Origin: Candidatus Giovannonibacteria bacterium
GTDB taxonomy: Bacteria; Patescibacteriota; Minisyncoccia; JACPKW01; UBA11713
NCBI GenBank assembly: GCA_016176285.1
Contig: JACOXM010000006.1
Coordinates: 1-45,259, forward strand
Direction: 5' to 3'
DNA length: 45,259 bases
The position numbers and the translations under genes are program-made. The notes below the pieces were generated by a model that was not told where the DNA came from, did not search any database, and worked only from the letters and a program-made list of their open reading frames with translations. Below are positions 4,710 to 9,953 of this stretch, in pieces. Position 1 is the stretch's first letter, and each line of letters starts with the position of its first letter.

Positions 4710-7700
4710 ATGACCGATGAGAAAGGTCCAAAGTATGAAGGTGTTTCTCCTCGCTCCGAAGAGGAGATTTTGTCTTTTTGGAAAGAAAATAAAATTTTTG
4801 AGAAATCGCTGGAATCCAGAAAAAAGGGGGAGTGTTTCGTTTTTTACGAAGGGCCGCCGTATGCAAACGGACTCCCTGGAATCCACCACGTAGAGTCCCG
4901 CTCATTCAAGGATATTATTTTACGCTATAAAACCATGCGCGGTTTTTATGTTCCCAGGCGCGCAGGATGGGATACTCATGGACTACCGACGGAAATGGCG
5001 GTTGAAAAAGAACTTAAAATTAATTCGAAGCGGGAAATTGAGGAAAAAATCGGCGTCGAGAAATTCGTTGAGACCGCGAAGAAAAATGTTTTTACATATA
5101 TCGGCGCTTGGGAAAAATTGACCGACCGCATGGCGTACTGGCTCGATTTAGAAAACGCGTACGTGACGATGACAAATAATTACATTGAATCTTTGTGGGC
5201 GATTGTTTCTGAAATTTCGAAGAAGGGATTTTTATACGAGGACTACAAAGTGCTTCCATGGTGCACGCGATGCGGAACTTCTCTTTCTTCGCATGAATTA
5301 GCTCTCGGGTACAAGAAAGTAAAAGAGGATTCGATATATGTGAAAGTTCCGTTAAGGGGGAGGGGCAATACTACGAGCTTCTTGGTTTGGACAACCACGC
5401 CCTGGACTCTTCCGGGAAATGTCGCCCTGGCCATAAACCCTAAGGCCGATTACGTTACAATTGAACCGGAAGATTCTCCGGGCGAGTGGCTTATATTGGC
5501 GGAAAAACGTTTGAGCGTGATTAGGGGCGCTTATAAAATCATAAACAGGGTGAATGGAAAAAGTCTCGCTGGAATGGAATACGATCCTTTATACCCCGCA
5601 GAAAAAAAAGAAAAAAATATTTATCGGGCAGTTGCGGCTGATTTTGTTTCCACCGAAGACGGCTCCGGCATTGTTCATATAGCCCCCGCTTTCGGAAAAG
5701 ACGATATGGAAATCGGAAAAAAAGAAAAACTTCCCATATTGGTCACGGTAAACGAAGAGGGAAGGATTATTGCGCCCGGGAAGAGCTGGCACGGCGAGTT
5801 TATAAAAAAAGCGGACCCGTTAATAATAGAAGACTTAAAAGATCGCTCGCTCTTATACAAAACCGAATCTTATCTGCACGATTATCCTTTTTGCTGGAGA
5901 TGCGGAACTCCTTTAATGTACTACGCGAAGAATTCCTGGTTTTTCAAAACAACGGCGGTCAAGGAAAAAATGCTCGAAGAAAATTCCAAGATAGATTGGC
6001 ATCCTTCACATCTTAAGGATGGACGCTTCGGGGAGTGGCTGAAGGAAAATGTGGATTGGGGAATTTCTCGCGAAAGATATTGGGGGGCTCCTTTGCCGGT
6101 TTGGAAGTGTTCTGGGAGCGAGTGCGGCTCGATTAAAGTAATAGGTTCGCTTGCCGAGTTGGATGAACTTGAATTAAATCCGACTAATTTAATTCTGATG
6201 CGGCACGGAGAAGCAATGCATAATGTGGAAAAATTAACGACGATTGATCCGGAAAATGATTCGGATGACAAACTCACGGAAGCGGGAATAAAAGCGGCGG
6301 GAGAGGCAGCTAAAAAATTAAAAAAAGAAAAAATAGATGTAATTGTTTCCTCGCCTTCATATAGGACGAAAGAAACTGCAGAAATAGTGAGAAGGGTAAT
6401 CGGGTTTTCGGATTTTGAAACTGATAAAGACCTTTATGAAATATTGGTAATGGGTTTTGCGGGAAAGCCACTTTCTGAATACAGGGGGGCGTTTGAAAGT
6501 GATGAAGAGAGATTCACTAAAAGGCCGTTAGGTGCTGAAAACCTTAGGGAATTGCGCGCGCGGGTTATGAGGGCGGCGAAAAGAATCAGAGAAAAATACG
6601 CTGGAAAAAATATTCTAGTAATAAGCCATGGGGATCCCGCGCGCGTGATGGAATGGGCAATTAAGGGGCTTGAGGAAAAAGATTTTAAAAATATCCAGGA
6701 GCTTAGGCCAGCCGAATTCCGAAAAATAAGATTTCATAACTGGCCGTACAGCAGTGAAGGCACGCTTGATATACATAAACCGTATATTGATGAGATAAAA
6801 ATAAAATGCAAGGCGTGCGGGGGTGAGATGTTGAGGCAAAAGGAAGTTATTGATGTTTGGTTTGATTCGGGTGCTATGCCGTTCGCGAGCCAGGGGTGGA
6901 AACTTGGAAACTCGGTTTCCAAGTGGATCAAGCGGAAACCGAGTTTCCTTTATCCAGCGGATTATATTTGTGAGGCAATCGACCAAACCCGCGGATGGTT
7001 TTATACTCTTCTTGCTGTTTCGTCGCTGCTCGGATTTAAATCTTCTTATAAAATGGTAATATCGCTGGGATTAGTTTTAGATGAGAAGGGAGAAAAAATG
7101 TCGAAGTCGAAGGGGAATGTTGTCGATCCGCAAATGCTCATGGAAAAGTATGGAGCGGATGCAGTTAGATGGTATTTCTACACGGTTAACCAGCCATGGG
7201 ACGATAAACTTTTCCGCGAAAAAGATATTCAAGATTCGCACAGAAGATTTTTGATGATCTTGTGGAACTCGTTTGTGTATTGGCGTACATATAGAGGAGC
7301 ACAACCCCCACTTGGAAACTCGGTTTCCAAGTGGCCCAAGTTAGTTATTAATAAATGGCTTTTAGTGAAATGGAATTCAATTTTAGGGGAAGCGACCGGA
7401 AAATTGGATGCGTATGATATCGTTGGCGCGGCGCGCGCTCTTGAAAATTTTGTCATCGAAGATTTGTCCCATTGGTATATCCGTCGCATACGCGGACATA
7501 TGAAAAGTGAAAAATCTGAAGTGGCAAGGGAAAGTTCTCTCGTGCTCGGATTTATTTTGGGGGAGCTTTCGAAAGTTTTGGCGCCCTTCGCCCCTTTCGT
7601 TTCGGAAGGAATTTATCACGGAATTAGTGGAGAAAAAGAAAGCGTGCATTTGGAAGATTGGCCTAAATTTAAAAAAGAAAACACGAAAGATAGAAAACTT

Positions 7701-8189
7701 ATAGATGAAATGGAAAAAGTAAGGGAAATTGTCACGAAGGCGCTTGAATTGCGGCAGAAGGCCGGAATTAAAATAAGACAGCCGCTTGCGGAACTAATAA
7801 TTACAACCAAATTACAAAAGGAACTCTTTAATTTGATCAAGGGCGAAATTAACGTCAAGGAAATTTCTTTTGGAAAAGAGCTCAAGCTTGACACAAATAT
7901 TACTCAAGAACTTAAAGAAGAAGGGCTTGTGCGCGAATTCATCCGGCAAGTCCAGGATTTCAGGAAGGAATTGAAGTTGACTCCGAAAGAAAAGGTTTCG
8001 CTTTTCACTGAAACGGACCATGATTTAGAAATCGTTTTAAAAAAATATTCCGATATGATTTTAAGGGAAATAAATCTTTCGGAATTTAAGCTGGGAAAAT
8101 TGGAAGGCAAGACTAAGGAGTTTTCTTTGGACGGCAAAAAAACGGAGATTGGCATATATCATGTGCACCACGTTGAAATCGAGAGTTAA
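4710..8189 (+). CDS. ileS: Isoleucyl-tRNA synthetase with inserted histidine-phosphatase (PGAM-like) domain
   Basis: 1159 aa; [95 protein letters not shown]. Phosphatase motifs inside: [28 protein letters not shown]. Confidence 0.96.
   Translation: [1159 protein letters not shown]
6177..6764 (+). other. Inserted histidine phosphatase domain within ileS
   Basis: Lies between [33 protein letters not shown] and [23 protein letters not shown], which are contiguous in ordinary IleRS; RHGE at 6201-6212. Boundaries approximate. Confidence 0.88.
6902..6948. repeat. Compound palindromic element, copy 1 (in ileS)
   Basis: ACTTGGAAA-CTCGG-TTTCCAAGT followed by GGAAACCGAGTTTCC, the reverse complement of GGAAACTCGGTTTCC within the first arm. 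Confidence 0.85.
7308..7334. repeat. Palindromic element, copy 2 (in ileS)
   Basis: CCACTTGGAAA-CTCGG-TTTCCAAGTGG, perfect 11-bp arms; core identical to copy 1. Confidence 0.85.
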
Positions 8190-8192
8190 TGT

Positions 8193-9953
8193 ATGAGCGA
8201 GTCGCGAACCTGCCAAAATTGCAAACAAAATTTTACAATCGAACCGGAGGATTTTAAATTTTATGAAAAGATAGATGTGCCTGCGCCGACTTTTTGCTGG
8301 AGGTGCCGCGCGCAGAGGCGTCTTGCTTTTCGTTCTGGTTGGAAACTTTATAAAAGGAAAGTGGAGGGAAGAGATGATGAAGTTTTTTCGCCGATCCCTC
8401 CCGAGGCGCCGTTTCGCGTTTTCGATGAAAATTACTGGTGGCGCGATACATGGGATCCCATGGATTATGGTCGCGATTACGATTTCTCTCGGCCATTTTT
8501 TGAGCAATTCAAAGAGCTTCTCTCCGTGGTCCCGATTTCGCACAAGAGAGCCACCAATGCTATTAGGAGCGAATATTCTTCAAACGCAATAGATATTAAG
8601 GATTGTTATCTTTGCTTCAATGCCGGATGGGTGGAAAATTCGATGTATTCAGAAACAATCAATCGCTCGCGCGATTCCATGGATCTTTTGAAGGTAGAAG
8701 ATTGCGAAGAGTGCTACGAGCTTTTTGACTGCAAAAAATGTTTCAAAACTTTTTTCTCTTCGGAATGTAATGAATGTGTTGATGTTTGGTTTTCGAAAAA
8801 TTTAATCGGATGCAGTGATTGTTTCGGGTGCGTTAATTTACGCCACAAAAAATATTATATTTTCAATGAGCCGTACACGCGCGAGGAATACTTGAAAAAT
8901 ATAAGAGAATATTCCTTGGGATCGCGCTCCGTAATGGATGGGCTGAAAGAAAAATTTGATAAGCATAAAACGGCATTCCCCCTAAAATATATGAATGGCT
9001 TGCATAATGTTAATGTCCGGGGAGATTATTTGGATCATTCAAAAAATGTCCGTGAATCATATGCTTGTGTTGATCTTGAAAACTGCGGATATTGCCAGCT
9101 TATTCTTTTTCTTAAAAGTTCGGATTGCATGGATATATCCGTTGCTGGGGGAGAGTTGTGTTATGAGCTGCAGGAGGCAGGGGGATATAATGTAAAGTTT
9201 TCTTATATTTGCGTGCCCAAAGATTTAAAAAGTTTGAATGTGGCTTTAATGCACTTGGAATACACTATGTTTGCATTTAATGCCTCATATATTTTTGGAT
9301 GTGTGGGTATTCGCAACAAACAATATTGCATTTTAAATAAACAATATACAAAAGAAGAATACGAAGAACTCGTCCCGAAAATAAAAAAGCATATGGACGA
9401 GATGCCGTTTACAGACAGGGCGGGCCGAATTTATAAATATGGAGAATTTTTTCCTCCGGAATTTTCGCCGTTTCCATATAATGATTCTTGGGCTCAAGAA
9501 TATTTTCCTCTTACAAAAAAAGAGGCGGGAGAGCGCGGTTTTTCGTGGAGAGATTTAGAAAAACGCAATTATCAAATTACCGCTAAATCCAGCGATCTTC
9601 CTGATAATATAAAAGATGTTAAAAATGACATTTTGGAACAAGTCATCGAGTGTTTACACGAGGGAAAGTGTGGCGAGGGGTGTACGGATGCTTTCAGGAT
9701 TATTCCGAAAGAACTCGAATTTTATCTTAAATTTAATTTGCCTTTGCCGAGACTTTGTCCGATATGTCGACATTGCGCACGAACAAAACAGAAAAATCCA
9801 TGGAAGCTATGGCACCGCGCGTGCATGTGCCAAGTCGCGGGACACAACTGGCACCAAAATAACAAATGCACCAATGAATTCGAAACCTCATACGCGCCCG
9901 AGAGGCCAGAAATTATTTATTGCGAACAATGTTATAACCAGGAAATAGTTTAA
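8193..9953 (+). CDS. Large Cys-rich protein, predicted zinc-binding, with duplicated terminal zinc-ribbon-like modules
   Basis: 586 aa, about 34 Cys, many as CxxC; N-terminal FTIEPEDFKFYEKIDVPAPTFCWRCRAQRR...WKLYKR matches C-terminal FRIIPKELEFYLKFNLPLPRLCPICRHCAR...WKLWHR. Confidence 0.8.
   Translation: MSESRTCQNCKQNFTIEPEDFKFYEKIDVPAPTFCWRCRAQRRLAFRSGWKLYKRKVEGRDDEVFSPIPPEAPFRVFDENYWWRDTWDPMDYGRDYDFSRPFFEQFKELLSVVPISHKRATNAIRSEYSSNAIDIKDCYLCFNAGWVENSMYSETINRSRDSMDLLKVEDCEECYELFDCKKCFKTFFSSECNECVDVWFSKNLIGCSDCFGCVNLRHKKYYIFNEPYTREEYLKNIREYSLGSRSVMDGLKEKFDKHKTAFPLKYMNGLHNVNVRGDYLDHSKNVRESYACVDLENCGYCQLILFLKSSDCMDISVAGGELCYELQEAGGYNVKFSYICVPKDLKSLNVALMHLEYTMFAFNASYIFGCVGIRNKQYCILNKQYTKEEYEELVPKIKKHMDEMPFTDRAGRIYKYGEFFPPEFSPFPYNDSWAQEYFPLTKKEAGERGFSWRDLEKRNYQITAKSSDLPDNIKDVKNDILEQVIECLHEGKCGEGCTDAFRIIPKELEFYLKFNLPLPRLCPICRHCARTKQKNPWKLWHRACMCQVAGHNWHQNNKCTNEFETSYAPERPEIIYCEQCYNQEIV

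Follow-up and report, generated by a model that had tools for sequence, protein, structure and literature searches.

How a complete phosphatase comes to lie in the middle of an aminoacyl-tRNA synthetase, and what it might do there, is the question raised by the ileS gene in a 45,259-nucleotide stretch of a Candidatus Giovannonibacteria genome (hereafter the window). Positions 4710–8189 of the plus strand form one open frame of 1159 codons, without a stop or frameshift near the insert. The encoded protein scores 857 bits against the isoleucyl-tRNA synthetase (IleRS) profile TIGR00392 (cut-off 621) in a match that is split into two stretches, and between these lies a match to the branch-1 histidine phosphatases (PF00300; aa 494–676, nt 6189–6737) of 113–116 bits at a cut-off of 21.7. 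A preliminary description, made from the sequence alone, had placed a complete RHG-type phosphatase within an otherwise normal IleRS and had suggested alignment to both families; the split TIGR00392 match and the 113 bits for PF00300 in the same ORF bear this out. The phosphatase stands, as had also been described, between both halves of a zinc knuckle and just ahead of VIDVWFDSG. It is flanked by CSGSEC and CKAC (aa 700–703), which we take to be the second zinc site of IleRS. The span first given, 6177–6764, is close to that of the insert, the extent of which is slightly larger, at about 6165–6761 (aa 486–684). Compared with the T. thermophilus IleRS (1ile), the matched stretches stop at residue 478 and restart at residue 488 of that protein, so that about 200 residues stand in place of a linker of about 10 residues. 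The coordinates are collected in Table 1.

Table 1. Coordinates of ileS, its parts and the embedded phosphatase in the window.
Feature	Position	Strand	Residues and basis
ileS, type 2 isoleucyl-tRNA synthetase with embedded histidine phosphatase	4710..8189	+	1159 aa
IleRS N-terminal part (first half of catalytic domain and CP1 editing domain)	4710..6164	+	TIGR00392 and 1ile matches to aa ~486-490
Class I signature motif, swapped form GIHH	4878..4889	+	aa 57-60
Second zinc knuckle, first half CSGSEC	6108..6125	+	aa 467-472; alignment to T. thermophilus IleRS
Inserted branch-1 histidine phosphatase with linkers	6165..6761	+	aa ~486-684; Pfam core aa 494-676
R498-H499, predicted phosphohistidine acceptor	6201..6206	+	invariant in 67 inserts
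R552, catalytic	6363..6365	+	invariant
E577, putative general acid/base	6438..6440	+	E, or D in closest relatives
H640, catalytic	6627..6629	+	invariant in IleRS inserts
IleRS C-terminal part (anticodon-binding domain, DUF5915 C-terminal domain)	6762..8186	+	profile matches
Second zinc knuckle, second half CKAC	6807-6818	+	aa 700-703
KMSKS	7095-7109	+	inside IleRS C-terminal part

The profile score, the class I signature, KMSKS, the CP1 editing domain and the anticodon-binding domain all identify the body of the protein as an isoleucyl-tRNA synthetase. Its CP1 domain matches 1wk8, PF08264 was matched in the Pfam scan, and the closest solved structures are 1ile and the P. megaterium IleRS2. Because this is the only IleRS match of the genome at E ≤ 1e-100, the enzyme is presumed to be active in charging. 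A 586-aa Cys-rich protein without a Pfam match (8193–9953) lies between ileS and recO.

The catalytic residues, which had been thought intact, are all present in the insert (R498-H499, S548, R552, E577, R618 and H640). Across a set of 67 sequences, made up of single inserts and of freed copies (described below), R498, H499, S548, R552, T556, R618 and H640 are 100% invariant and E610 is conserved at 99%, against a mean commonest-residue frequency per column of only 0.49; retrieval by profile favours inserts with intact motifs, and dead copies may be under-sampled in these figures. At the acid/base position almost every copy has E or D, and one copy from a valyl-tRNA synthetase (ValRS) has S. 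An AlphaFold2 model of the insert alone reached a pLDDT of 91.7; in the full-length model, built on an 11-row alignment, the pLDDT of the synthetase core fell below 50 at residues 1–96 and 716–761. The best PDB matches of the insert model were the metal-independent phosphoserine phosphatase PspA, PhoE, the mycobacterial glucosyl-3-phosphoglycerate phosphatase and monomeric PGM, and superposition on known branch-1 members gave TM scores of 0.76–0.79. A profile search with the insert returned PhoE at 98 bits, PspA at 93 and CobC at 80. Score, fold and the catalytic set of RHG His, Arg, Glu and C-terminal His thus agree in assigning the insert to histidine phosphatase branch 1 (PF00300). A phosphatase of known specificity was also considered and rejected: the insert falls short of the equivalog cut-offs for the alpha-ribazole phosphatase CobC (TIGR03162; 63.5 vs 162.9 bits), for PspA (NF045917; 53.4 vs 350 bits) and for dPGM (63.9 vs 225 bits), and since all of them were missed it is not assignable to any known specificity.

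The preliminary description had proposed a search for the same insertion in IleRS of other CPR bacteria, and its occurrence proved to be far broader and older than was suggested there, extending over the window's class and, patchily, to other Patescibacteria. In the class, 41 of 57 sampled genomes, from 29 family codes, carry the insert inside the IleRS ORF at the same place, as checked by the order of IleRS N-part, insert and C-part. The ORFs are continuous in nearly all carriers; in genome G011 the N part lies in two frames. Roughly one in five genomes of the class lacks any copy, and the phosphatase is therefore not indispensable. From the phylum as a whole 134 genomes were drawn, 130 of them with an IleRS, and in 21 of these 130 the TIGR00392 match is split near model position 500 and the ORF enlarged. 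These comprise nine out of nine genomes drawn from the window's class, together with 12 that belong to seven further families. Among the carriers with names are Giovannonibacteria, Liptonbacteria, Zambryskibacteria, Uhrbacteria and Moraniibacteriota; the carriers as a whole form a large group of very small bacteria, most of them uncultured. A pattern scan of 85,462 species, which reaches close relatives only, gave one match outside Patescibacteria, a Clostridia MAG (L033); it was ruled out as an IleRS carrier, the match being a stand-alone phosphatase. The pairing of IleRS and phosphatase is real and ancient. Most likely, ileS acquired the insert early in the history of Patescibacteria, at a single loop that lies within the second zinc knuckle and separates its halves.

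Once there, the insert has evolved as a module of its own, with tandem copies, release upstream, loss and replacement of the surrounding body. In family f109, IleRS ORFs of 1440–1550 aa from 11 genomes carry two tandem phosphatases, with the catalytic residues kept in both, and a 1572-aa IleRS of family f87 carries three, of which the third occupies another site. In G024, G051 and G304, as well as in a Wildermuthbacterium, a stand-alone copy lies immediately upstream of an insert-free ileS, giving the gene order argS-phosphatase-ileS; the freed copy of G047 is found about 1 kb upstream of ileS. The upstream copies score 195–216 bits with the insert profile, as against at most 121 bits for other stand-alone phosphatases, and in the tree they fall inside the insert clade, in about four separate positions. 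As to loss, the insert-free IleRS of G009 (family f4) reads ...DKFSPKKL-KKGEHNWPYNKKGKLDLHRP..., in which the upstream junction matches that of the sister genome G040 (DKFSPKKLNHYIFLRHGE) and is followed by an insert-type tail, and we read this sequence as a deletion scar.

Inserts occur in both HXGH and GXHH IleRS bodies, and the tree of the hosts, calculated from IleRS with the insert cut out, disagrees with the tree of the inserts. The upstream gene of G304 pairs with the L029 insert as its sister (support 100/98, 62% identity), whereas the two IleRS bodies are only 49–53% identical and have the signature motifs HYGH and GLHH, respectively; a clade of these bodies is rejected (AU p 2.8e-7). 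Two upstream genes of family f19 are sisters as well (96/81); their bodies carry HYGH and GIHH and are likewise rejected as a clade (AU p 6.6e-7). In family f91 a single insert clade (100/97) spans both body types; host trees did not significantly reject vertical inheritance for f91 (AU p 0.08) or for f15 (AU p 0.11). To judge from these sequences, IleRS bodies have been swapped between the HXGH and GXHH types, with the phosphatase staying in place or next door. Since the module outlives such exchanges, the activity under selection would be independent of one particular body; and since it is found inside or beside the gene, association with ileS seems to be favoured, through co-production or a charging-linked substrate.

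Phosphatases have also entered ValRS. Seven ValRS of other Patescibacteria (L079–L085) carry one just before DTxDTWFSSG, at the homologous position to the insertion point of IleRS, with two present in one of the seven; L079 and L081 score above the ValRS cut-offs. Because these inserts are scattered in the tree among stand-alone phosphatases, they are of separate origins. The copy in L083 (G095), which reads VTSE, no longer has the second catalytic His; it is possibly dead and offers a useful contrast. Many ValRS of the window's class show a TIGR00422 match broken at about 415–447, with about 30 residues missing at the site that matches the IleRS insert.

Other embedded or fused enzymes were encountered as well. 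The ValRS at L079:327–4157 (G258) combines a HAD hydrolase, a PF06821 serine hydrolase and a His phosphatase. An IleRS at L190:3193–6780 (G031) has a NUDIX domain at aa 225–343, in the CP1 region, and another at L066:1638–5990 on the minus strand (G097) contains a GNAT acetyltransferase and also, at a second site within its C-terminal half, a His phosphatase. His phosphatase was further found fused to a D-2-hydroxyacid dehydrogenase (L092; G113, other Patescibacteria; 552 aa) and, in f86 genomes, to a VTT membrane domain (L093 and L094; about 450 aa).

Our preferred reading, to which we give a probability of roughly 0.68, is that the insert is an active, module-like phosphomonoesterase of the PhoE/PspA type that is kept with ileS and has its substrate outside the aminoacylation reaction; the confidences given to the next two explanations overlap with this value. 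The position, the conserved active site, the fold, the distribution, the tandem copies, the freed copies upstream and the replacement of bodies are observed, and activity of the phosphatase in the cell is most likely. Histidine phosphatases act on phosphomonoesters through a phospho-His intermediate. By this family mechanism the insert would be a catalytically competent, metal-independent enzyme working in two steps by way of phospho-His499; the phosphate would be held by R498, R552 and H640, and E577 would act as acid/base. Cleavage of an aminoacyl-AMP-like species, once proposed as a role for the domain, does not fit this mechanism, hydrolysis of Ile-AMP being chemically unlikely for a phosphomonoesterase. 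The substrate would rather be a soluble phosphomonoester that is not a product of aminoacylation, and lodging in ileS may serve stable co-production with the translation machinery, perhaps also localisation at it. On replacement of the body the module would stay or adjoin, having been duplicated in some lineages and freed upstream or lost in others.

A serious possibility, against which we would nevertheless bet, is that the location has no function: the zinc-knuckle loop would simply tolerate insertions, and its occupant would be an ordinary metabolic enzyme selected for its own activity only. The varied enzyme domains in loops of Patescibacteria synthetases are in keeping with this, as are the freed and lost states and the faster divergence of the insert relative to its host (41–57% vs about 60–80% identity within families f1 and f91). 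Neutrality, however, predicts more relocation than is seen, the freed copy tending to remain directly upstream of ileS, and it sits poorly with one insert clade at an identical point in two IleRS types.

The opposite view is a phosphatase coupled to IleRS, acting on a substrate tied to the synthetase and so regulating or protecting charging; such a substrate might be a phosphorylated synthetase residue, a tRNA end with a 3'- or 5'-phosphate, a nucleotide by-product or a phosphorylated inhibitor of the synthetase. We consider this unlikely. The domain persists uncoupled, both as an upstream gene and relocated in G208, it is missing from sister lineages with an ordinary IleRS, and PPi is dealt with by other enzymes. 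In favour of coupling are the persistence of the phosphatase within ileS or next to it, whichever type of IleRS2 is encoded, the separate insertion of the same kind of domain in ValRS at the homologous site, and the NUDIX, GNAT, HAD and serine hydrolase domains in IleRS and ValRS of other Patescibacteria. A bifunctional IleRS-phosphatase, with its second site doing charging-related work on an IleRS- or tRNA-linked substrate or disposing of by-products or phosphorylated inhibitors of the synthetase, is a tentative proposal; if true, it would be part of a wider habit of Patescibacteria, the embedding of small hydrolases and transferases in class Ia synthetases.

It is improbable that the pocket merely binds tRNA or another phosphate ligand without hydrolysis. 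Conserved arginines could bind phosphate in such a module, but both catalytic histidines are invariant and almost every copy retains E or D as the acid/base. The lysine-rich KKLKKEKI segment, present in many inserts and not universal, might suggest the same role; it was itself a search pattern, hence its seeming invariance in A2/A3, and was left out as evidence.

Highly improbable, too, is a function in pyrophosphate removal or in resistance of the mupirocin type. Family I pyrophosphatase is found in only 14 of the 57 relatives, and none is present in the window's genome, which is without PF00719. A membrane H+-pyrophosphatase is encoded by 35 of the 57, however, including the window's genome (PF03030, C5:17429–19402), for which reason pyrophosphate removal by the insert is not needed there; across the 57 class genomes, pyrophosphatase content shows no correlation with the insert. 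Most of these genomes have one or the other type of pyrophosphatase, and the soluble family I and membrane enzymes appear almost mutually exclusive among them. As for the mupirocin-like resistance put forward in the preliminary description, the swapped GXHH motif in IleRS2 has been reported to confer hyper-resistance by itself (PMC10485003); the body in the window is already an IleRS2 with GIHH, which suffices, and the insert occurs in HXGH bodies as well as in GXHH ones. Finally, an assembly or frame error fusing two genes has virtually no likelihood of being the explanation, and a chance arrangement is excluded too, as the ORF is open and the same arrangement recurs at the same point in 41 of the 57 class genomes, in independent assemblies of many species and with nearly all ORFs continuous.

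Synthetases with extra domains are known. A catalytically conserved phosphatase in the middle of a synthetase is apparently undescribed: a literature search, with most subscription journals outside its coverage, found no paper on a His phosphatase embedded in IleRS or another aminoacyl-tRNA synthetase, CPR included. The spread across the class amounts to a natural experiment, with exchange of the body, tandem copies, release next door and separate insertion in ValRS at the homologous site. Two questions thus become directly testable: does the placement of an unrelated enzyme inside an essential gene reflect functional coupling or a means by which tiny genomes retain it, and has a second activity of these synthetases been overlooked?

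Several known systems resemble the window protein in part. The insert shares its fold and the catalytic R-H...S-x-x-x-R...E...H with PhoE, the broad-specificity phosphatase of B. stearothermophilus (1h2e/1ebb), and with PspA (4ij5/4ij6), but these are stand-alone enzymes, whereas the phosphatase of the window is embedded in IleRS and 24–27% identical to them. Added enzyme domains in IleRS are already known from the NCBIfam family NF040702 (ileS_w_GNAT), and the phosphatase is a new addition. That family likewise joins an extra enzyme domain to IleRS, and GNAT is also found in one Patescibacteria IleRS, but N-acetyltransferase is a different enzyme class; the window protein scores 311 bits against its cut-off of 1999 and shows no GNAT in the Pfam scan. 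The ValRS with His phosphatase (L079–L085) have in common with it the fold class and the homologous site in a class Ia synthetase, and differ in the separate origin of their phosphatases and in one copy without the second His. The IleRS2 of T. thermophilus (1ile) and P. megaterium (8c8v) are alike over the whole body, including zinc knuckles, KMSKS and the C-terminal DUF5915, and the GXHH subtype of IleRS2 (PMC10485003) has the altered motif, GIHH in the window. In place of the linker of some 10 residues seen in solved IleRS2 structures, however, the IleRS of the window has about 200 residues of phosphatase.
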